Shown here: positions 2,206 through 51,155 of the stretch, piece by piece
Numbering within the stretch: position 1 is the stretch's first letter
How the letters are laid out: each line of letters starts with the position of its first letter
NCBI GenBank assembly: GCA_009908855.1
Contig: JAAAOM010000037.1
Location: forward strand, 1 to 64,000
Source: Bacteroidota bacterium
GTDB lineage: Bacteria; Bacteroidota; Bacteroidia; Bacteroidales; JAAAOM01
Length of the DNA: 64,000 nt
Direction: 5' to 3'
Program-made: the position numbers and the translations under genes
The notes under the pieces: generated by a model
Told to the model about the DNA's origin: nothing
The model's database searches: none
What the model saw: the letters and a program-made list of their open reading frames with translations, nothing else

Positions 2206-3167
2206 ATGACAAAACCAACAGAACAGCAGATCGAACTTGGAACAGCGGCCCTGGGCCGGCCTCAATATATTAACCTCAAGGAGGAGCCTACTACAGACTT
2301 TTATAGGGAGTCCTTTAAGAAAAAAGGATTGGTTGTACTCAACGAAGCCTATAAAAGCGGAATTCGTTATTTTGATACTGCCCGGGTTATGGGTTGGCCG
2401 AAGAATTGATCATTGACTGGGTGCGACAAAACCAATTAACCGGTATTGAGGTGGCCAGCAAATGGGGTTACACGTATACCGCGAATTTTAATCCCCATGC
2501 AAAAGTCCACGAAGTAAAGGAACACAGCTTATCGAAGTTGCAGGAACAATGGGAAGTGACCAAGCAATTGCTGCCCCTGTTAACAATCTATCAGGTTCAT
2601 TCGGCCACGCTTGATTCGGGAATCCTTGACAATGCAGAAGTGCTGGACTTCCTGGCTCAACTGAAAGAAGCACATGGCATTCGTATGGGTATTACAACAT
2701 CCGGGGCCAACCAGGAAGCGATTATTCGAAAAGCATTAGAAATTAACAGGAATCAACAATTGTTGTTTGATGTATACCAGGTAACCTACAATATATTCGA
2801 CCAAAGCTTATTTGCGATCATTCAGGAACTTCAAAAGCAAAACATGAGGGTTGTGATTAAAGAAGCGTTGGCGAATGGGCGCATTTTTCCAAACCAAAAC
2901 TATTCTCATTATGCAACTGCTTATCAATACTTACATGAATTAGCCCAAAAATACAAGGTTGGGATGGATGCGGTCGCCCTGCCTTTTTGCCTGGATAGTA
3001 TGCATCCATATAAAGTATTAAGTGGAGCCTCTGAAAAAAATCATCTCAATGAAAACCTTCAAGCACGATTATTTAAATTGGATGAAACAGAAATAGTACA
3101 ATTAAAAGCCTGTGCTGTCGATCCTGCTCATTATTGGAAGGAACGAAAACAATTGGCATGGAATTAG
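2206..3167 (+). pseudogene. Aldo/keto reductase family protein, interrupted by a 1-nt frameshift near 2390
   Basis: ORF 2191-2409 ends ...RYFDTARVMGWPKN*; ORF 2394-3167 continues the fold. Reading 'gtttatggg' instead of 'gttatggg' restores ARVYGLAEELIIDWVRQ. Confidence 0.8.
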
Positions 3168-3431: not shown

Positions 3432-3678
3432 TGAATATCCCCGGTTAATAAGTTAATTTTGTTTATCCAACATCATCCATTGCATTAATACGTTTTCTAC
3501 TTACATGTTTTACTGAATTATTTTACAGGCTTTCTCTCCTTATGCAATAGGTATTATTTTTATCCGTCTGTTATTAAATTTTCAGTGGTCGGATGGAGCA
3601 TGCCATGATTCTCTGATTTTAGATTATTATAACATCGTAGCTCCTTGATAAAAATAGAGATGTGCCGGATATATTGTC

Positions 3679-4542
3679 ATGGCTCAGTTAATCTCGTCTA
3701 AAATAAAAAATATGGGTAAGATTGTACATAAAGAAAATTTATCCGAAAATGTATTTAAACTTGAGATAGAAGCACCAATTATTGCCCGGAAAAGAAAGGC
3801 AGGGCATTTTGTGCTGATAAAAATTGGCGATCAGGGCGAACGCATACCGTTAACCATTTCCAGTGCCAATGAGCAGAAAGGAACCATTAGCCTGGTAGTA
3901 CAAAAAGTTGGTGTAACCAGTCATAAATTAGCAGCCCTGAAAGCAGGAGAGGAAGTAACTGACGTGGTGGGCCCATTAGGTCAACCTACTGAAATTGAAC
4001 ACAAAGGCACTGTATTGTGCGCCGGCGGAGGCGTAGGAATTGCCCCCCTGTTGCCTATTGTTGAAGCCATGAAAGCCAAAGGCAACAAGGTAATATCGGT
4101 TATTGCAGGACGGACCAAAGAGCTGGTTATACTGGAAAACGAAATCAGGGCACATTCCGATGAACTGGTGATTATGACCGATGATGGCAGCTACGGGCAA
4201 AAGGGATTAATTACCGCTGGCATGGAAGAAATAATCCGTAACCATACGATTGATATGGCTGTTACCATTGGCCCGGCAGTGATGATGAAGTTTACCAGCC
4301 TGTTAACAAAAAAATACAACATACCCACCATCGCCAGTCTGAATACTATCATGGTTGACGGAACGGGTATGTGTGGCGCATGTCGTGTAACTGTTGGTGG
4401 CATGACCAAGTTTGTATGTGTTGACGGACCGGAGTTTCATGCCCATGAAGTAGATTATGACGAACTCCTGACACGACTGAATGCCTACAATGATGCGGAA
4501 CAGTCAGCCCTTGAAAACTTTGTAAAAGAGACAGATGTATGA
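3679..4542 (+). CDS. nfnA: Sulfide/dihydroorotate dehydrogenase-like FAD/NAD-binding protein (NfnA-type ferredoxin-NADP reductase subunit alpha)
   Basis: RIPLTISSANEQKGTISLVVQ, GGGVGIAPLLPI, and C-terminal MCGACRVTVGGMTKFVCVDGPEF Cys cluster. Start may be the internal ATG at 3712. Confidence 0.85.
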   Translation: MAQLISSKIKNMGKIVHKENLSENVFKLEIEAPIIARKRKAGHFVLIKIGDQGERIPLTISSANEQKGTISLVVQKVGVTSHKLAALKAGEEVTDVVGPLGQPTEIEHKGTVLCAGGGVGIAPLLPIVEAMKAKGNKVISVIAGRTKELVILENEIRAHSDELVIMTDDGSYGQKGLITAGMEEIIRNHTIDMAVTIGPAVMMKFTSLLTKKYNIPTIASLNTIMVDGTGMCGACRVTVGGMTKFVCVDGPEFHAHEVDYDELLTRLNAYNDAEQSALENFVKETDV

Positions 4543-6014
4543 TGAACGATCCGAGAAATGAACCGTGGCGGGAAGCCTTGAGGAAATCGATGAAAGCCAG
4601 GGAACGAACCCTGTTGGAAAGAACGGCGATGAATGAAGTTCCTGCCCAAACACGCAGAACCAATTATGACGAGGTGAACACCGGATATACAGCGGAAATG
4701 GCAGTGCAGGAATCCCAAAGGTGTCTGGATTGTAAAAATCCTACCTGCATGGAAGGATGTCCGGTTAACATTGATATCCCAACCTTTGTTAAACAAATTG
4801 AAGCCAGGAATTTTGCCGAAGCGGCCAAAACCATCAAGCAAACCAATATTTTTCCGGCTATTTGCGGCAGGGTATGCCCGCAGGAAGCCCAATGCGAATC
4901 AACTTGTTTTTACACGGCCAAATTAAACAAACCATCAGTAGCCATCGGCAACCTGGAACGATTTACAGCCGATTATGAACAGCAAAGCGGGCACGTACAC
5001 ATCCCTGAAATCAAAACCGTCAATGATATAAAGGTGGCTGTTATCGGGTCTGGTCCTGCCGGTTTAGCCGCTGCAAGCGACCTTGCCATGAATGGATATA
5101 AAGTGACAATATTTGAGGCTTTGCACGAATTTGGCGGAGTATTAAAATACGGGATCCCGGAATTTCGACTGCCCAATTCTATCATCGAACAGGAAATTTC
5201 CGTGTTAAAAGAAATGGGAGTTACCTTTATAAAAAACTTTATCGTGGGTAAAACAGCTACCATCGACGATTTGAAAGAAGAAGGATTCGAGGCCTTTTTC
5301 GTGGGCAGTGGTGCCGGTTTACCGCGTTTTATGAATATTCCCGGTGAGAACTTAATTGGTGTATTATCGGCCAACGAATACCTTACACGTGTGAACCTGA
5401 TGGGTGCCCATAAACCAGGGCATGACACACCCGTGTTGTATGGCAAAAAAGTAGCCGTTATTGGTGGCGGCAATACAGCCATGGATTCGGTAAGAACAGC
5501 ATTACGCCTGGGCGCTGAAAAAGCCATGATCATCTACCGCCGCTCGTTCGACGAAATGCCGGCCCGAAAAGAAGAGATACAACACGCCAAAGATGAGGGT
5601 GTGGAATTTTTAAACCTCACCAACCCGGTAGAATACAAAAGCGATGATAAAGGACGGGTAAATAAAGTTATCCTCCAAAAAATGGAATTATCAGAGAAAG
5701 ACGCATCAGGCAGAAGAAGGCCGGTACCTATTGAAAATTCGGAATATGAAATGGATATTGACCTGGCTGTTGTATGCGTTGGGGTGTCTCCTAATCCAAT
5801 TATTCCGCAAAGCATTACAAACCTTGAATTAACCAAATGGGACACCATTCAGGTTGACCCTGAACAATTCAATTCCAACATACCCGGCCTTTTTGCCGGC
5901 GGAGATATCGTGAGAGGCGGTGCTACCGTGATATTAGCCATGGGTGATGGAAGAAAAGCTTCGGCTGCTATGCATCAATATCTCCAAAAACAACTTGTAA
6001 CAACCGACAATTAA
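4539..6014 (+). CDS. nfnB: NADPH-dependent glutamate synthase small-subunit-like / NfnB
   Basis: N-terminal Cys clusters (CLDCKNPTCMEGCPVNIDIPTF, CGRVCPQEAQCESTC), Rossmann motifs GSGPAGLAAASDLA and GGGNTAMDSVRTALRLGA; ATGA overlap with nfnA. Confidence 0.9.
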   Translation: MMNDPRNEPWREALRKSMKARERTLLERTAMNEVPAQTRRTNYDEVNTGYTAEMAVQESQRCLDCKNPTCMEGCPVNIDIPTFVKQIEARNFAEAAKTIKQTNIFPAICGRVCPQEAQCESTCFYTAKLNKPSVAIGNLERFTADYEQQSGHVHIPEIKTVNDIKVAVIGSGPAGLAAASDLAMNGYKVTIFEALHEFGGVLKYGIPEFRLPNSIIEQEISVLKEMGVTFIKNFIVGKTATIDDLKEEGFEAFFVGSGAGLPRFMNIPGENLIGVLSANEYLTRVNLMGAHKPGHDTPVLYGKKVAVIGGGNTAMDSVRTALRLGAEKAMIIYRRSFDEMPARKEEIQHAKDEGVEFLNLTNPVEYKSDDKGRVNKVILQKMELSEKDASGRRRPVPIENSEYEMDIDLAVVCVGVSPNPIIPQSITNLELTKWDTIQVDPEQFNSNIPGLFAGGDIVRGGATVILAMGDGRKASAAMHQYLQKQLVTTDN

Positions 6015-7493: not shown

Positions 7494-8177
7494 ATGCCAA
7501 ATAAATACGCTAATATCCAAAAACTTATAGCCTTGTGGGAGGATTATGAAAAGCAGGGAAATGCCCAAAACTTCCGTGATTTTGGCCAATGGTTAATTCA
7601 TCACGATACACCTGCTAAAACAACAAAAAATTCCGTTGAACACCATCAAAAAGCAAATAGAGATTTTTTATCGAACCCGGAAATCAAACAGGATGCATTG
7701 ATCCAGATATCACGACTGGCCCGTTTCGTGGAGTTTTACACCAAAAAATTCTTTGAAGGTTTAACATTGAATAACCTTACCGAATTCAACTTTCTGAATT
7801 CATTAAACAAAAACAATTCGTTGAATAAAACCGATATCATCAGCATGCATTTCGTAGAATATACCACCGGTATCGACATTCTTAAAAGGTTAACCCAACT
7901 GGAACTAATAGAAGTCACAGAAGATACACGTGATCGTCGCAGTAAAAAACTAAAGATCACTCCTGCAGGTAAACGCGCGCTGCTCGAAACCAAGATCAGA
8001 CTGAATAAAATTTATGACCTGATATTTCATCAAACCAATCCCGCACAATGGAATTCGTTTATCACTGTTTTGAATCAAACAAACAATGCCCAACAAAATA
8101 TATATAAAAAGTTCAGTGACCAATCATATCTTGATTTAATGGAGTTTCAGGAATTCGACCCGGGCATTCAGGAATAA
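7494..8177 (+). CDS. MarR-family winged-helix transcriptional regulator
   Basis: IDILKRLTQLELIEVTEDTRDRRSKKLKITPAGKRALLET wing motif. Confidence 0.8.
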   Translation: MPNKYANIQKLIALWEDYEKQGNAQNFRDFGQWLIHHDTPAKTTKNSVEHHQKANRDFLSNPEIKQDALIQISRLARFVEFYTKKFFEGLTLNNLTEFNFLNSLNKNNSLNKTDIISMHFVEYTTGIDILKRLTQLELIEVTEDTRDRRSKKLKITPAGKRALLETKIRLNKIYDLIFHQTNPAQWNSFITVLNQTNNAQQNIYKKFSDQSYLDLMEFQEFDPGIQE

Positions 8178-8224
8178 TCAACCCGTTTAGTGATTCATTT
8201 TTTAATGATCGTAAGTAAAGCAAT

Positions 8225-11200
8225 ATGGCAAAAAACAACATAACTGATCAAAACTATCACGAGCAGGCAGAGCGCCAAAAGCTGGTTACCCTGAATAAAA
8301 TAATAGGCCTCATAAGTGCCGGGGAATCATTGAAAGAAACCTTGCAAAAGATATGTCAGCTCATTCCCGGAGCTTATACGTATCCGAAATATGTAAAGGT
8401 GCGTCTCACCTTTCAAAACCTGCAATTCGTATCTGATGATTTCCAGGAAAGCGGATGGGTTGAAAAAGAACCTATTACCGCGACAGACGACAAAAGCAAC
8501 ATGCTTGAAATATATTTTACCCGTGAATACCTTGAATTGGCCAACCATGAATTTCTGAATAAAAGTCCTGAATTCATTCAGCACGCGGCTCAAATTATCT
8601 CGGGCTTCATATCCAAGAACCATCTTGAAAAACTATCCCGTGAAAACAAAGAACGGATAAAAGAACTTACTGGTATAAGCCGCACGGCAGAAATCCTGAA
8701 ACAAGGCAGAAAACTGGAAGAATCCTTACAGGAAATCTGCCATTTTTTGCCCGAGGCATGGCAATATCCGCAATATGCAGCTGCCAAAATTGTTTTAGAC
8801 GATAAAACCTTCAAAAGCAGGCGTTTTAAAGAAACACCATGGGTGCAAAAACAATCGTTTGAGACATTCAACAACAAAAAAGGCTGCATTGAGATCTATT
8901 ATTTAAAGGAATTGCCGGAAGAAGATGAAGGGCCTTTCTTAAAAGAGGAACGCAAATTGCTGGACAACTTAACAGCCCTGATATCAGGTACCGTTTCAAC
9001 CAAGGGCCTGCAACAATTGTTACACGATAATTCCGAACGCTTAAAAGAACTCAGGGGAATTAATCAAACCTCGGCGGTGTTGAAAAAGGGCAAATCCATG
9101 GATGAATCACTCCGTGATATTTGTTACATCATACCCGAAGCCTGGCAATATCCCGAACACACTGTCGCCCGAATAAGTTATGAAAAAAAGGTGTTTACCA
9201 GCCCTCATTTTAAAGAAACCAAATGGTGTCAAAAACAAGATTTTAGAACGCCAGGCAATAAAAAAGGAACCATCGAGGTTTTCTACCTGAAAAAATTCCC
9301 CGAAGCGTATGAGGGGCCATTTTTAAAGGAAGAGCGCAACCTGCTCATCAACCTGGCCAACCTCATTGCCGGAACAGCTACCAAAAACATTTTCAACAAC
9401 CTCTTGAACAGCAACCGGGAACGACTGAAAGAGTTAAAGGCCATCAACCAAACATCGTCCATTATTGCCGAAGGAAGACCCGTTGATGAAACGCTGCAAA
9501 AAATTGTTAATATACTACCCGGCTCCTGGCAATACCCAAAAAAAACGGTTGCCCGCATCTATTTTGAGGAAAAGTATTATACCAGCCCTGATTTCCGGGA
9601 AACCAAATGGAGCCAGAAAGAAAACTTTGTCACCATTGATTCAAAAAAAGGAACCGTTGAAATTTACTATCTCAAGGCATTTCCGAAAGCCTACGAAGGT
9701 CCTTTTTTGAAAGAAGAAAGGCATTTGCTCATTAACATAGCCAAGCTAATAAGCGGCTATTTGAACCATTATAAAGGACGGGATATCATCCAGTTCAAAA
9801 ACCTGCTCAACAGGAATGAAAAGTATGAATCAAAGGAATTTCGTAAGTCTTTTATTCAAAACAAGCGCCCGCTGCAGCTTTTCTTTAATCAACAGGTTAT
9901 TGACAAATATATTTACCTGGATATGATGAAATACAAAGTAAAAGAAATACTGTTCGTAGCTACTTTGTATGATGCCTATATCCTTGAAAACGAAAATAAC
10001 TTCTTCGAACAATTCATGGGAGAAATATACCAGTATAGTCTGTTCTCCCTCCCACGCATAACCGGTGTTACCTCCGAAGAAGAAGCCATGGAAATACTGG
10101 ATACCAAACCTTTCGACCTGGTTATATTAATGGTAAGCATTGATACCACGGCCCCGCTTCAAATAAGTAAAAAAATCAAAGAAAAAGAACCCAACCTTCC
10201 CATATACCTTTTGCTGAATAACCAGTCGCATGTAAAGAATTTTGAAGAACTGGTACCCGCTACTTTTTCCATTGATAAATTATTTGTCTGGCAAGGGCAT
10301 TCGCAAATATTTTTCTCTATCGTGAAATCCATCGAGGACGCGGCCAATGTTGAAAACGACACGCAGATAGGCCTGGTAAGGATCATTTTGCTTATTGAAG
10401 ACTCGGCCGAGTATTATTCGAGATACTTACAGATATTGTATTCCATTGTTTTCGAACAAATACAAAAACTATTGCCGGAGGTGGAAAAAAACGAACTGGA
10501 TAAAATATGCAAAATGAGATCCCGCCCTAAAATTCTGCATGCCAGGAATTATGAAGAGGCCATTCATATTTACAACAAGTATAAAGATTTTATGCTTTGT
10601 GTAATTTCCGATATCGAATTTGAACGGGAGGGGAAATTTGATCGATCCGCAGGCCTGCGATTTATCAAAAATGCCAAATCGCAAACCAAGCATATTCCTT
10701 TTATTTTGCAATCAAGCGACAATAATTATGCCGCTGTGGCTGGAGAAGCAGGTGCTCATTTTATCAATAAAAACGCCAACAGCCTTCATAATGATCTGAA
10801 AAATTTTCTGACCAACTATATCTATTTCGGTGATTTCGTTTTCAAAGACACGCGGGGCGAACCCATTGCCTCAGCCAAATCCTTACGTGAATTTGAAACC
10901 TTGCTGCATAAAATTCCCGATGAATCGATTTATACCCACGCCATGGAAAACCAGTTTTCATTATGGCTCATGGCACGCGGAGAAATTGAACTGGCACGAC
11001 ATACCAATCCCGTAAAAGTAAGTGACTTCAATACGGTAGAAGATTTCAGAAACTATTTCATCCAGGCCATTAAAAAGTACAAGGAAGAAAAGAAACGGGG
11101 CAAAGTATTGAGCTTTGATGAAACCTCGATCCTGGATGAAAAGAATATCATTTCCTTTTCAGGCGGATCATTTGGCGGTAAAGGAAGAGGGGTTGCCTTT

Positions 11201-12829
11201 ATCAATGCCCTGATCAACAATCTCGACCTTTCCGATATCTCTTCGGGAATAAACATTCGGATGCCTTTAACGGCAATTATCGGGACTGATGAGTTCAAAG
11301 CTTTCATGAATAAAAACAACCTGTGGGAGCTTATTTTTGAACCCGGGCTTACCTATGAAGAAATAAAGCAACAATTCACTAGGGCTAAACTATCATCCCA
11401 ACTGGTCCATAAACTCGGGGTTTTCCTCGACCAGGTTGATAAACCAGTGGCTGTGCGTTCTTCATCTCTTTCAGAAGATTCGCTTACCCAGCCATTTGCC
11501 GGGGTCTTCGACACCTATATCATTCCCAATAACCAAAAAAGTAAAAAGGCAAGGCTCGAGGAATTGTCCAAAGCCATTAAACTGGTTTATGCCTCGGTAT
11601 ATTCGGTAAGTGCCAAAACCTATTTCAGAGCCATCGGACAAAAAATTGAAGAAGAACGTATGGCAGTGATCCTTCAGGAGCTTGTCGGAAATCAGCACGA
11701 TCAATATTATTATCCGCACATCAGCGGCACAGCCCAATCGTATAACTACTATGCTATGGAACCGATGAAGCCTAAGGATGGGGTTGCCAATATAGCCATA
11801 GGACTGGGAGACTACGTGGTAAGCGGAAACAAATCGTACCGTTTTTCTCCGAAACATCCCGGTATTGATGTGTATACAACCAAGGACCTGCTGCATTCAA
11901 CGCAAGTTGAATTTTACGCCGTTGATCTCTCCAATAAGAGTATTGACCTGTTAAAAAACGGCGAACATGCCTCCATGACACCTCTTGATATTAACACAGC
12001 CATTGCTCATGGAATCATAAAGCACTGTATTTCAACATACAATCCTGATAACGATCGTATTGAAGCGGGAACGGCAAAACCAGGACCAAGGATCGTGAAT
12101 TTTGCCAACATACTCAGGTTCAATTATACTCCCCTGGCCCAAACAATACACGTGATCCTAAATATGGTGCAGGAAGCATTTGGCTCACCCGTTGAAATTG
12201 AATTTGCCGTTGACCTGAACAAAACCGTGAATCAATTGCCTTCCTTTTACCTGCTACAAATAAAACCGTTACTAAACGACAAAATAAATGAGCATGTAAA
12301 CCTGGAAAAAATCAATCCCCGAGATTGTATTCTCTATTCAAAATCAAGTCTTGGAAATGGAATTATTTCGGATGTAAAGGATATTATACACGTGGATATA
12401 AACCGGTTTGATAAACTTAAAACCACTGAAATGGCCAAAGAAATACAGGAACTGAATGAATACATGGTGCAACAGAATAAAAGATATATCCTTATCGGTC
12501 CCGGAAGATGGGGAACAAGGGAAAGATTTTTGGGCATACCGGTAAACTGGTCGCAAATTTCAAATGCCCGGGTTATTGTGGAGATCAGCCTGGCCAATTA
12601 TCCGCTTGATGCCTCCCTGGGGTCACACTTTTTCCATAACATCACGTCCATGGATATCGGGTATTTATCGGTTCTTGACTCTTCATCGGAAGAATTTATT
12701 CAATGGGACATGATCAACCAACAACCCTTAGTACAAGAAACAAAGTATTTTAAGCATGTTCGCTTTGACCAGCCTTTGCACATATACATGAATGGTAAAC
12801 AAAGGACATCAGCCATAGCAATTAAATAA
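8225..12829 (+). CDS. Multidomain signalling protein: 4 tandem GAF-like sensor repeats, receiver-like regions, PEP/pyruvate-binding (PPDK_N-type ATP-grasp) domain
   Basis: Four repeats of the type ...LPxxWQYPxxTVARIxFE...SPxFxETKWxQKxxF...KKGTxEIYYLKxFPExxEGPFLKEERxLL; REC-like RIILLIEDS...VISDIEFEREG; PPDK_N motifs SGGSFGGKGRGVAFI, VAVRSSSLSEDSLTQPFAGVFDTY, VEIEFAVD, LLQIKPL. No phosphohistidine swivel or C-terminal PEP TIM barrel. Confidence 0.85.
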   Translation: MAKNNITDQNYHEQAERQKLVTLNKIIGLISAGESLKETLQKICQLIPGAYTYPKYVKVRLTFQNLQFVSDDFQESGWVEKEPITATDDKSNMLEIYFTREYLELANHEFLNKSPEFIQHAAQIISGFISKNHLEKLSRENKERIKELTGISRTAEILKQGRKLEESLQEICHFLPEAWQYPQYAAAKIVLDDKTFKSRRFKETPWVQKQSFETFNNKKGCIEIYYLKELPEEDEGPFLKEERKLLDNLTALISGTVSTKGLQQLLHDNSERLKELRGINQTSAVLKKGKSMDESLRDICYIIPEAWQYPEHTVARISYEKKVFTSPHFKETKWCQKQDFRTPGNKKGTIEVFYLKKFPEAYEGPFLKEERNLLINLANLIAGTATKNIFNNLLNSNRERLKELKAINQTSSIIAEGRPVDETLQKIVNILPGSWQYPKKTVARIYFEEKYYTSPDFRETKWSQKENFVTIDSKKGTVEIYYLKAFPKAYEGPFLKEERHLLINIAKLISGYLNHYKGRDIIQFKNLLNRNEKYESKEFRKSFIQNKRPLQLFFNQQVIDKYIYLDMMKYKVKEILFVATLYDAYILENENNFFEQFMGEIYQYSLFSLPRITGVTSEEEAMEILDTKPFDLVILMVSIDTTAPLQISKKIKEKEPNLPIYLLLNNQSHVKNFEELVPATFSIDKLFVWQGHSQIFFSIVKSIEDAANVENDTQIGLVRIILLIEDSAEYYSRYLQILYSIVFEQIQKLLPEVEKNELDKICKMRSRPKILHARNYEEAIHIYNKYKDFMLCVISDIEFEREGKFDRSAGLRFIKNAKSQTKHIPFILQSSDNNYAAVAGEAGAHFINKNANSLHNDLKNFLTNYIYFGDFVFKDTRGEPIASAKSLREFETLLHKIPDESIYTHAMENQFSLWLMARGEIELARHTNPVKVSDFNTVEDFRNYFIQAIKKYKEEKKRGKVLSFDETSILDEKNIISFSGGSFGGKGRGVAFINALINNLDLSDISSGINIRMPLTAIIGTDEFKAFMNKNNLWELIFEPGLTYEEIKQQFTRAKLSSQLVHKLGVFLDQVDKPVAVRSSSLSEDSLTQPFAGVFDTYIIPNNQKSKKARLEELSKAIKLVYASVYSVSAKTYFRAIGQKIEEERMAVILQELVGNQHDQYYYPHISGTAQSYNYYAMEPMKPKDGVANIAIGLGDYVVSGNKSYRFSPKHPGIDVYTTKDLLHSTQVEFYAVDLSNKSIDLLKNGEHASMTPLDINTAIAHGIIKHCISTYNPDNDRIEAGTAKPGPRIVNFANILRFNYTPLAQTIHVILNMVQEAFGSPVEIEFAVDLNKTVNQLPSFYLLQIKPLLNDKINEHVNLEKINPRDCILYSKSSLGNGIISDVKDIIHVDINRFDKLKTTEMAKEIQELNEYMVQQNKRYILIGPGRWGTRERFLGIPVNWSQISNARVIVEISLANYPLDASLGSHFFHNITSMDIGYLSVLDSSSEEFIQWDMINQQPLVQETKYFKHVRFDQPLHIYMNGKQRTSAIAIK

Positions 12830-12837
12830 TCATAACC

Positions 12838-13500
12838 TTGCAGATGATAATAAACCTGGGAATATACGGTGAGCACAGGCTTGTATGTGAAGGTATCGAG
12901 ACCCTGTTCCGGGATAAAGATAACATACACACCCTCTTTGTCTGTTATGAGCAGGATCTTTTAAACGAAATGCTTAAAACACACAAGGTCAATATTCTTA
13001 TCATGAATATCAATGAATTCACCACCCCGGTATTGAACCAAATTTTTCAAATTGATATTCATTTTCCGAAAATTAAAATGCTTGTACTATCCAAAAATTC
13101 ATCTGAAGAGGTGATATACAAGATCATCCGATCGGGTGCAAAGGGATTTCTTTCGCAGGAATCGGCTAAAGAAGAGTTGTATGAGGCAGTGCATACATTG
13201 CGTCATGGACACGACTATTACAGCAAGTCCATCACCCATCTGCTATTAAACAAGTACATTAAAAAAATAAAATCGAATGACGACAATGAAAAATCCGATA
13301 TCAGCACTTTAAGTCAACGTCAAATAGAAATACTAAAACTATGGGGAGCAAGCCATACCAACCAGGAAATTGCGGACCGTTTATTTATCAGTATCCGTAC
13401 GGTTGAAACGCACAAAAACCACATCATGCAAAAACTAAACCTGCGTACAACCGTTGATATGGTAAAGTTTGCTATAAAAAACAACCTAATTGAAATATGA
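12838..13500 (+). CDS. LuxR/NarL-type regulator with degenerate receiver domain
   Basis: C-terminal HTH LSQRQIEILKLWGASHTNQEIADRLFISIRTVETHKNHIMQKLNLRT; N-terminal REC fold with ILIMNINEF at the phosphoacceptor site. Confidence 0.88.
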   Translation: MQMIINLGIYGEHRLVCEGIETLFRDKDNIHTLFVCYEQDLLNEMLKTHKVNILIMNINEFTTPVLNQIFQIDIHFPKIKMLVLSKNSSEEVIYKIIRSGAKGFLSQESAKEELYEAVHTLRHGHDYYSKSITHLLLNKYIKKIKSNDDNEKSDISTLSQRQIEILKLWGASHTNQEIADRLFISIRTVETHKNHIMQKLNLRTTVDMVKFAIKNNLIEI

Positions 13501-13703
13501 TTATACGTAAAACACCGAAATTGATAAGCAATACACTTAATTCAAACCATCCCGGTAATCAGGGGCAAAAAAGTTATATATATTCGATGCAAAAAATGGA
13601 GGGAAGCTTTTGATTAGAATTACATCCACTGTTGCTAACTGTAACTTTAAACATTTGCTTACCCTTCCATTTATTACATAAACTTAATAAAACCAGTACA
13701 CAT

Positions 13704-15056
13704 ATGTCAGATCTGTTTGAAGCCAAAGTAAACGACTTTATGGCAAAAATCATTGCTAAAAATCCGGGCGAAGCCGAATATCATCAGGCTGTACAGGAAG
13801 TAACAGAGTCGTTAATGCCTTTTATAGAAGAAAATCCAGTGTATAGCCATGCCAAAATACTGGAAAGAATCGCTGAACCCGAGCGTGTGATTATGTTCAG
13901 GGTTCCCTGGCTCGACGATCAGGGGAACATACAAATAAACCGGGGATACCGCGTTGAGATGAACAGCGCCATTGGGCCTTATAAGGGAGGATTACGTTTT
14001 CACCCCACTGTAAACCTGGGTATCTTAAAATTCCTCGCATTTGAACAGGTATTCAAAAACAGTCTGACTACACTGCCCATGGGTGGTGGCAAAGGTGGTT
14101 CGGATTTTGATCCAAAGGGAAAATCAGACAATGAAGTGATGCGTTTTTGCCAAAGCTTCATGACCGAATTATCGCGCCACATAGGTCCTGACACCGATGT
14201 CCCGGCTGGTGATATAGGTGTTGGCGGCCGTGAAATAGGGTATCTGTTTGGGCAGTATAAAAGAATACGAAATGAATTTACGGGTGTATTAACGGGTAAA
14301 GCCATAGAATGGGGAGGTAGTCTGATCAGACCCGAAGCCACCGGCTATGGTGCCGTGTATTTTGCGCAGGAAATGCTCAAAACCCAGGGTGACAATCTGA
14401 AAGGTAAAGTATGTGCCATCTCCGGTTCAGGCAACGTAGCCCAATATGCTACCGAAAAAATACTGCAATTAGGAGGTAAAGTAGTTACCCTTTCCGATTC
14501 AGCCGGATTTATCTACGATGAAGGCGGAATTACCGAAGATAAGCTGAAGTTCGTGATGGAACTGAAAAACATTAAAAGGGGAAGAATAAAAGAATATGCT
14601 GACAAGTATGGTGTTGATTACGTAGCAGGAAAAACACCCTGGTCTGTGAAATGTGATTTGGCTTTCCCTTGCGCCACTCAGAACGAGATTAATGAAGATG
14701 ATGCCAAAACACTGGTAAACAATGGTTGTATTGCTGTTTCAGAAGGCGCCAATATGCCATCGACCCCGGAAGCTGCCGAAGCTTTTGTCAAGGCTCAAAT
14801 CCTTTACGGTCCGGGTAAAGCAGCAAATGCCGGTGGTGTAGCCGTTTCAGGACTGGAAATGACACAAAATTCGATGCGCCTGCCGTGGACCCGCGATGAA
14901 GTGGATGACCGCCTGCAACAGATCATGACCAGCATACACGATACATGCGTAAAATTCGGTAAAGACAATTCAGGATTTATAAACTATATCAATGGCGCTA
15001 ATATCGGCGGATACATTAAAGTAGCCGATTCGATGATTGCCCAGGGAGTGGTTTAA
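13704..15056 (+). CDS. gdhA: NADP-specific glutamate dehydrogenase
   Basis: MSDLFEAKVNDFMAKI start; GPYKGGLRFHPTVN, LPMGGGKGGSDFDPKGKSD, PAGDIGVGGREIGYLFGQYKR motifs. Confidence 0.97.
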   Translation: MSDLFEAKVNDFMAKIIAKNPGEAEYHQAVQEVTESLMPFIEENPVYSHAKILERIAEPERVIMFRVPWLDDQGNIQINRGYRVEMNSAIGPYKGGLRFHPTVNLGILKFLAFEQVFKNSLTTLPMGGGKGGSDFDPKGKSDNEVMRFCQSFMTELSRHIGPDTDVPAGDIGVGGREIGYLFGQYKRIRNEFTGVLTGKAIEWGGSLIRPEATGYGAVYFAQEMLKTQGDNLKGKVCAISGSGNVAQYATEKILQLGGKVVTLSDSAGFIYDEGGITEDKLKFVMELKNIKRGRIKEYADKYGVDYVAGKTPWSVKCDLAFPCATQNEINEDDAKTLVNNGCIAVSEGANMPSTPEAAEAFVKAQILYGPGKAANAGGVAVSGLEMTQNSMRLPWTRDEVDDRLQQIMTSIHDTCVKFGKDNSGFINYINGANIGGYIKVADSMIAQGVV

Positions 15057-50282: not shown

Positions 50283-51155
50283 ATGACAACCGCAGAATTG
50301 ACCCGTCATTTGATCAAATCGCAAAATGCGGAGTTGACCGAGTACCATATCTACAACAGATTGGCCGAAAGGGTTAAAAACAAACACAATAAATCGGTTT
50401 TGCAACAAATTGCTGAAGATGAAAAAAGGCATAGCGAATTTTGGGAGCAGTACACTTCGGTAAAAGGCAGTCCGAATAAAATACGTATATGGTGGTATTG
50501 CCTGCTTACACGCATATTCGGACTCACCTTTGGTATTCGTTTGCTTGAACAGGGTGAAAACAATGCCCAAAAAAATTATGATGTCATCCTGCAGGATTTG
50601 CCGGAAGCCCAAAAAATTATGAATGAGGAGGATGTTCACGAACAGCAACTTGTTGAATTGCTCAAAGAAAAACAATTAAATTACATCGGTTCCATTGTAC
50701 TTGGGTTAAACGATGCACTGGTGGAATTAACCGGTGCACTGGCTGGTCTTACATTTGCGTTACAAAACACCCATTTAATTGCCATAGCAGGATTAATAAC
50801 CGGAATTGCCGCTTCCTTATCAATGGCTGCATCCGAGTACCTGTCAAACAGAGCTGACGGTAATAATGACAAAGCAATTGCCAGCGCTATTTACACCGGT
50901 ATAGCCTATATCAGTACCGTTGCTTTATTGGTTATCCCCTATTTTATTTTTAGTCATTTTCTGATGTGCTTTTTCATGACCTTGTCCATTGCCATTTTTA
51001 TCATTTTTGTATTTAATTATTATATATCGGTTGCCAAAGGATTTTCATTTAAAAAGCGTTTTTTCGAAATGGCCGTCATTAGTTTAGGTGTAGCGGCCTT
51101 ATCATTTGGTATAGGTGTATTGGTGCGTCAGACAATTGGTGTTGATATTGGTTAA
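50283..51155 (+). CDS. Ferritin-like (rubrerythrin-type) domain fused to VIT1/CCC1-family transporter
   Basis: N-terminal LTEYHIYNRLAE...AEDEKRHSEFW; C-terminal VLGLNDALVELTGALAGLTFAL...GIAASLSMAASEYLSNRAD. Confidence 0.88.
   Translation: MTTAELTRHLIKSQNAELTEYHIYNRLAERVKNKHNKSVLQQIAEDEKRHSEFWEQYTSVKGSPNKIRIWWYCLLTRIFGLTFGIRLLEQGENNAQKNYDVILQDLPEAQKIMNEEDVHEQQLVELLKEKQLNYIGSIVLGLNDALVELTGALAGLTFALQNTHLIAIAGLITGIAASLSMAASEYLSNRADGNNDKAIASAIYTGIAYISTVALLVIPYFIFSHFLMCFFMTLSIAIFIIFVFNYYISVAKGFSFKKRFFEMAVISLGVAALSFGIGVLVRQTIGVDIG

Follow-up and report, generated by a model that had tools for sequence, protein, structure and literature searches.

A conserved PPDK_N-containing multidomain protein and a pseudo-receiver LuxR protein linked to glutamate dehydrogenase in Bacteroidota

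What is an ATP-grasp domain of the phosphoenolpyruvate (PEP) synthase type doing inside a protein built from sensor-like and receiver domains, and what does that protein act upon? The question was raised by a locus in a 64,000-nucleotide stretch of a Bacteroidales contig (the window), where three plus-strand open reading frames (ORFs) encode a MarR-like winged-helix protein (7494 to 8177), a 1,534-amino-acid (aa) multidomain signalling protein (8225 to 12829), which is the core of this report, and a LuxR/NarL-type regulator with a pseudo-receiver and an intact GerE helix-turn-helix (HTH) domain (12838 to 13500). The first-pass annotation had read them as a candidate undescribed three-gene signalling module. 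Its coordinates, including the shared orientation and the gaps of 47 and 8 bp, agreed with the ORF listing; the luxR ORF starts with TTG, and an in-frame ATG at position 12844 would make the second gap 14 bp rather than 8. The next plus-strand gene is gdhA, encoding an NADP-type glutamate dehydrogenase (GDH; 13704 to 15056, likely start ATG at 13704). Upstream on the same strand lie, by similarity, an nfnB-like (3679 to 4542) and an nfnA-like gene (4539 to 6014); since NCBIfam names the latter NADPH-dependent glutamate synthase GltA, above the cut-off, the label nfnAB is to be taken as an assignment by similarity. Elsewhere in the window we observed a HipBA-type toxin-antitoxin-like pair (546 to 2095; the HipB-like HTH gene comes first and the HipA-like kinase gene, with HipA_C at 2.3e-50, second), a possibly truncated aldo-keto reductase ORF matching only the C-terminal two thirds of its family (2394 to 3167), and a rubrerythrin-like domain fused to a VIT1 iron-transporter-like domain (50283 to 51155).

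The large protein proved to be more complex than initially read: four repeats, a receiver and PPDK_N had been recognized, while a second receiver, a DUF5752 domain and a C-terminal domain had been missed. Mutual alignment delimited four tandem sensor-like repeats of ~128 aa and the "WQYP" type (8294 to 9796; copies 1 to 4 at 8294-8677, 8675-9064, 9059-9448 and 9443-9796). The repeats, earlier called GAF-like, are thus real, but their kinship to GAF domains is only plausible: no GAF model or structure matched significantly, no Pfam model matched the repeat at all, and comparison with the PDB gave a weak match to 4g3k (NLH1; E value of 0.64), which we take to be a GAF structure. Relatives of the large protein carry between zero and five copies, and within the window's genome the repeat is confined to this protein. 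Because it was also found in a haloarchaeal histidine kinase, where it sits between a receiver and a PAS domain with 34% identity, and at the N terminus of a distant GDH-linked paralogue, we consider it a mobile signalling module.

Two receiver domains follow. The first (REC1; aa ~570 to 690, 9932 to 10294), where Pfam Response_reg matched aa 611 to 665 (4.3e-7), is degenerate, with Met636 at the phospho-Asp position, and none of 98 relatives has an Asp there. The second (REC2; aa ~718 to 870, 10376 to 10834) is intact, with E725, D726, D796 (codon 10610-10612), S830 and K849, of which D796, E725 and K849 are kept in all 98 relatives. The acidic pair, phospho-Asp, Ser/Thr and Lys that characterize a receiver are therefore found together in REC2 only. 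DUF5752 comes next (aa 883 to 958, 10871 to 11098; Pfam E value of 2.9e-5, just over the gathering score), followed by PPDK_N (aa 984 to 1355, 11174 to 12289; Pfam 4e-37). The PPDK_N catalytic residues K986, R1078, E1084, E1326 and Q1345 are invariant in 107 relatives, and position 1347 is Lys in the long forms versus Arg in PEP synthase. An AlphaFold model of aa 955 to 1534 matched the fold of rifampin phosphotransferase, PEP synthase and pyruvate phosphate dikinase (PPDK), with a best E value of 8.7e-14. These properties suggest that PPDK_N may turn over ATP.

The remaining 169 residues form a C-terminal domain (aa 1366 to 1534, 12320 to 12826) that is conserved among relatives. It carries GPGRWG and G-S/T-HFF motifs, with R1428 and W1429 (in GRWG) and H1468 (codon 12626-12628, in G-S/T-H-F-F) being invariant. 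Modelled alone, it folded confidently (pLDDT of 87), yet Foldseek found no matching fold in the PDB (best E value of 0.03), no Pfam model matched, and PDB sequence searches with this domain and with the repeats returned matches at chance level. PPDK_N had been said to feed a phosphohistidine domain normally; none was detectable here by Pfam, hhalign or Foldseek, and the conserved domain with its invariant His occupies the corresponding place after PPDK_N. The "GSHFF" motif and the strand order had prompted us to consider it a divergent PEP-utilizers phosphohistidine swivelling domain, a candidate that we rejected, as PF00391 did not match, hhalign gave 0.1%, and Foldseek found no match; the hhalign alignment of PPDK_N extended only ~15 residues into the domain. 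Pfam likewise gave no hit to the PEP/pyruvate-binding barrel (PF02896) in the large protein, which ends 180 aa past PPDK_N.

Near-full-length relatives of the large protein were found at 45 loci (~50 to 62% identity, far beyond chance), and among 198 genomes from the order to which the window belongs, 175 encode a relative. Three shorter forms occur: one of ~1000 aa without repeats, one of ~580 aa consisting of PPDK_N and the C-terminal domain only, and one of ~1060 aa combining a repeat, PPDK_N and the C-terminal domain with NTP_transf_2. The last is the GDH-linked paralogue, seen at L139 (4808 to 7987) and L105 (469 to 3666); at L139 its gene belongs to a tandem array that also includes two GDH genes and the genes for a 1000-aa form and a 580-aa PPDK_N-only form. 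Another tandem array, at L141 (3867 to 16485), runs gdhA, 1000-aa form, HisKA_3 kinase, canonical LuxR, gdhA, 1000-aa form, GDH, so that an ordinary two-component pair replaces the pseudo-receiver LuxR. At L045 (8755 to 13359) the large gene is divided between two frames (462 and 970 aa), by a frameshift or a real split. A plasmid search returned matches from Bacteroidota alone, plus ordinary ppsA. The open-licence literature yielded no paper on this family, and the description of the module as undescribed accordingly stands provisionally.

The LuxR protein has a GerE HTH at aa 157 to 212 (Pfam E value of 3.8e-17) and a weak Response_reg match. Its phospho-site in the window is Asn57 (codon 13006-13008), and among 40 family members this site is Asn in 31 and Asp in a single one, while the HTH is conserved. 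The phospho-Asp is thus lost in 39 of 40, which makes it very probable, as first proposed, that these proteins cannot use standard Asp phosphorylation. Of 71 sampled loci, 38 have luxR directly 3′ of the large gene, with a median gap of 3 bp, a fraction that is a biased estimate for the whole family, most loci having been picked by similarity to the query. Mapped on the tree of the core, the presence of LuxR requires 3 to 4 changes versus a shuffled mean of 26 to 31 and is therefore clustered. About 30 relatives without LuxR fall outside the LuxR-bearing clades and often have gdhA adjoining instead. Homologues lacking the neighbour hence count against LuxR as a module member outside these clades but not inside them, and they count against MarR. 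The contigs of L016 and L017, titled Spirochaetales, sit with a LuxR inside the Bacteroidales tree and are probably mis-binned metagenome contigs, or reflect transfer. At the LuxR-less loci L050, L053, L054, L069 and L143, NuoE-like and NuoF-like genes, as in electron-bifurcating hydrogenases, lie directly 3′ of the large gene. Collectively, these data support a conserved two-gene core, the large protein and the pseudo-receiver LuxR, inside a wider GDH-linked family, and the conserved adjacency indicates that the two are probably a translationally coupled pair.

The nitrogen or redox context suspected from the neighbouring genes (gdhA, nfnB-like) turned out to be real and conserved, and the strongest link of the large-protein family is to glutamate dehydrogenase. 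A gdhA gene lies within three genes of the large gene in 37 of the 71 loci. In the same order, both genes were listed for 80 genomes, and in at least 37 of these the long form is encoded within 6 kb of gdhA, mostly divergently, a lower bound because only the best gdhA matches were listed and many assemblies are fragmented. Beyond this order, the other Bacteroidota examined have a GDH gene no more than 6 kb away from 48 of 59 family members, in every case in the same orientation. This arrangement is present in 27 of 33 genomes, and the members span all three shorter forms, including forms without LuxR. By our own estimate, given two to three GDH genes per 3 to 4 Mb, chance alone would bring the genes together in about 1% of cases, and authentic PPDK genes showed no GDH linkage where both genes were listed; as the loci are related, the counts are of non-independent events. 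Of 81 genomes with the GDH subtype nearest to that of the window, 76 also encode the long form, compared with 23 of 117 genomes that lack this subtype, a comparison confounded by shared ancestry. Since the linkage persists without LuxR, LuxR cannot be the general output of the family. The large protein may instead act on GDH itself, by ATP-dependent covalent modification or allosteric control, with LuxR as a later transcriptional layer in part of the family. Consistent with this are the phylum-wide linkage of LuxR-less forms to either GDH type, and the distant GDH-linked paralogue, which joins the same type of repeat, PPDK_N and the same C-terminal domain to NTP_transf_2 and is, in our view, reminiscent of GlnE/GlnD. 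The protein of the window, however, has no nucleotidyltransferase domain, and gene linkage is no proof of physical interaction. We regard direct action on GDH as a serious but minority possibility, one compatible with the control through LuxR that we favour.

A palindromic element with the consensus TTACGTG-N3-CACGTAA was found between LuxR and gdhA. In the window, the operator-like copy (TACGTAAAACACCGAAAT; 13503 to 13520, plus strand), which has 3 mismatches to the consensus, lies ~185 to 200 bp 5′ of gdhA, and a second, weaker copy starts at 13524, also 5′ of gdhA. Over-represented 9-mers were present in 9 of 22 LuxR-gdhA gaps versus a shuffled maximum of 6, and in ~1 Mb of locus sequence, allowing up to 3 mismatches gave 29 matches, of which 16 fell within 900 bp 3′ of LuxR. 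When no more than 1 mismatch was allowed (the strict form), seven genomes together contained 8 occurrences, and the LuxR-gdhA gap accounted for 7. These counts show placement more than rarity, because a reversed control pattern turns up roughly once in each genome. At L151 (G397:C14:53486), a second strict copy lies away from gdhA, flanked by a small gene and by what reads as a hisG-like gene in antisense orientation. We then scored upstream regions with a matrix built from 14 gdhA sites, leaving out each locus and its close kin. Sites with p ≤ 0.05 preceded gdhA in 23 of 27 LuxR-bearing entries versus 4 of 12 LuxR-less entries, a difference confounded by relatedness, and the motif was first discovered in the same loci as those later scored. 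The same threshold was reached before nfnB in 9 of 11 cases, with no nfnB site in the training set. The top match in the whole 64-kb window was located 5′ of the nfnB-like gene (3496 to 3517, minus strand), ahead of the two copies before gdhA at 13503 and, third, 13524. Because a real site may fall within a random window, the permutation p values have a lower limit of about 0.02. Compensatory change between the half-sites was not significant (p value of 0.22), and scans for the Bacteroidetes-type promoter pattern, sigma-70 promoters and terminators found no more than chance.

The placement of the element suggests that LuxR may bind it. As the element is also present at the LuxR-less loci L072 and L053, another regulator may do so, and the palindrome before gdhA and nfnB could then serve an unlinked factor, of the Crp/Fnr type or another dimeric kind, with LuxR acting elsewhere. 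At L024, a Crp/Fnr-like gene, read from sequence only, lies 5′ of the large gene. LuxR is nevertheless the only consistently adjacent regulator, and the element is the commoner in LuxR-bearing gdhA regions. Such an arrangement is conceivable, but we consider it the less probable course.

Computation establishes the domain make-up, the invariance of the active-site residues, the coupling to LuxR, the phylum-wide GDH linkage and the shared DNA element. Together they point to a nitrogen/NADPH regulatory locus for GDH, in which the large protein would act through a phosphorylation-independent LuxR; we give this specific reading about even odds, whereas the more general one, that the large protein helps to control nitrogen assimilation in Bacteroidota, is probably correct. 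According to this model, the 1,534-aa protein would integrate ligand binding on the repeats, D796 phosphorylation on REC2, and ATP in the PPDK_N site. In this clade, it would be co-produced with a LuxR whose own receiver is non-phosphorylatable, and it would control LuxR, whose activity it would set through contact or through a reaction that depends on ATP. A LuxR dimer would then bind the palindrome 5′ of gdhA and of the nfnAB-like genes and control their transcription, and the large protein perhaps acts on GDH directly as well.

More speculatively, PPDK_N might pass the ATP phosphate via the C-terminal domain, which has the invariant His1468, and the acceptor would be either REC2 of the same protein or glutamate dehydrogenase, a route gated by the sensor repeats for nitrogen control across Bacteroidota. 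If true, this would be an ATP-grasp route to protein phosphorylation, but we think it unlikely. It is also unlikely that the large protein serves metabolism as an ATP-grasp enzyme encoded near GDH, its sensor and receiver domains acting solely in allosteric regulation: the invariant ATP-grasp residues and the 580-aa form of PPDK_N plus C-terminal domain beside GDH would fit, but no known substrate domain is present, and a regulatory role is indicated by the fusions to receivers, to sensor repeats and to a nucleotidyltransferase. As for the three-gene module first proposed, its large protein/LuxR half stands but its MarR member does not: the MarR-like protein (Pfam HTH_27, E value of 3.6e-7; 22.4 bits to MarR PF01047, cut-off 24.6) adjoins the large gene in the window and, among relatives, only in L003, with LuxR, and L009, and is missing beside all other sampled homologues, which places it outside the conserved core and makes the triplet highly improbable as a functional unit.

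How does this family compare with known systems? PEP synthase, PPDK and rifampin phosphotransferase have in common with it the ATP-grasp domain and the invariant Lys, Arg, Glu and Gln. In contrast to these enzymes, the large protein has neither a PEP/pyruvate barrel nor a PEP-utilizers phosphohistidine domain that could be detected; an unclassified domain forms its C terminus, and it is fused to sensor repeats and receivers. Like response regulators with enzymatic outputs, it joins an intact REC2 to a non-DNA-binding, enzyme-like part, but it differs from them in its ATP-grasp output, its degenerate leading receiver, its up to five repeats, and the lack of an adjoining cognate kinase in this clade, L141 having its HisKA_3 kinase and canonical LuxR. 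The LuxR protein shares the receiver and GerE HTH of NarL/FixJ (LuxR-type) response regulators, except that the phospho-Asp is lost almost family-wide. In Bacteroidales, the protein named by PGAP "PEP/pyruvate-binding domain-containing protein" (WP_041525632.1, Parabacteroides distasonis), a name without a function, has the same core from REC1 to the C terminus; this short form lacks both the sensor repeats and a LuxR partner, and its gene adjoins gdhA divergently.

To our knowledge, the control of nitrogen assimilation in Bacteroidota is poorly known. If our reading is right, it provides a conserved candidate regulator, with a named partner and operator, for glutamate dehydrogenase, a central ammonia-assimilating enzyme, and would be relevant across a phylum that dominates the gut and many anaerobic habitats. 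An ATP-grasp output would then join the receiver-linked enzymes, and the family also contributes a conserved domain matching no solved fold.
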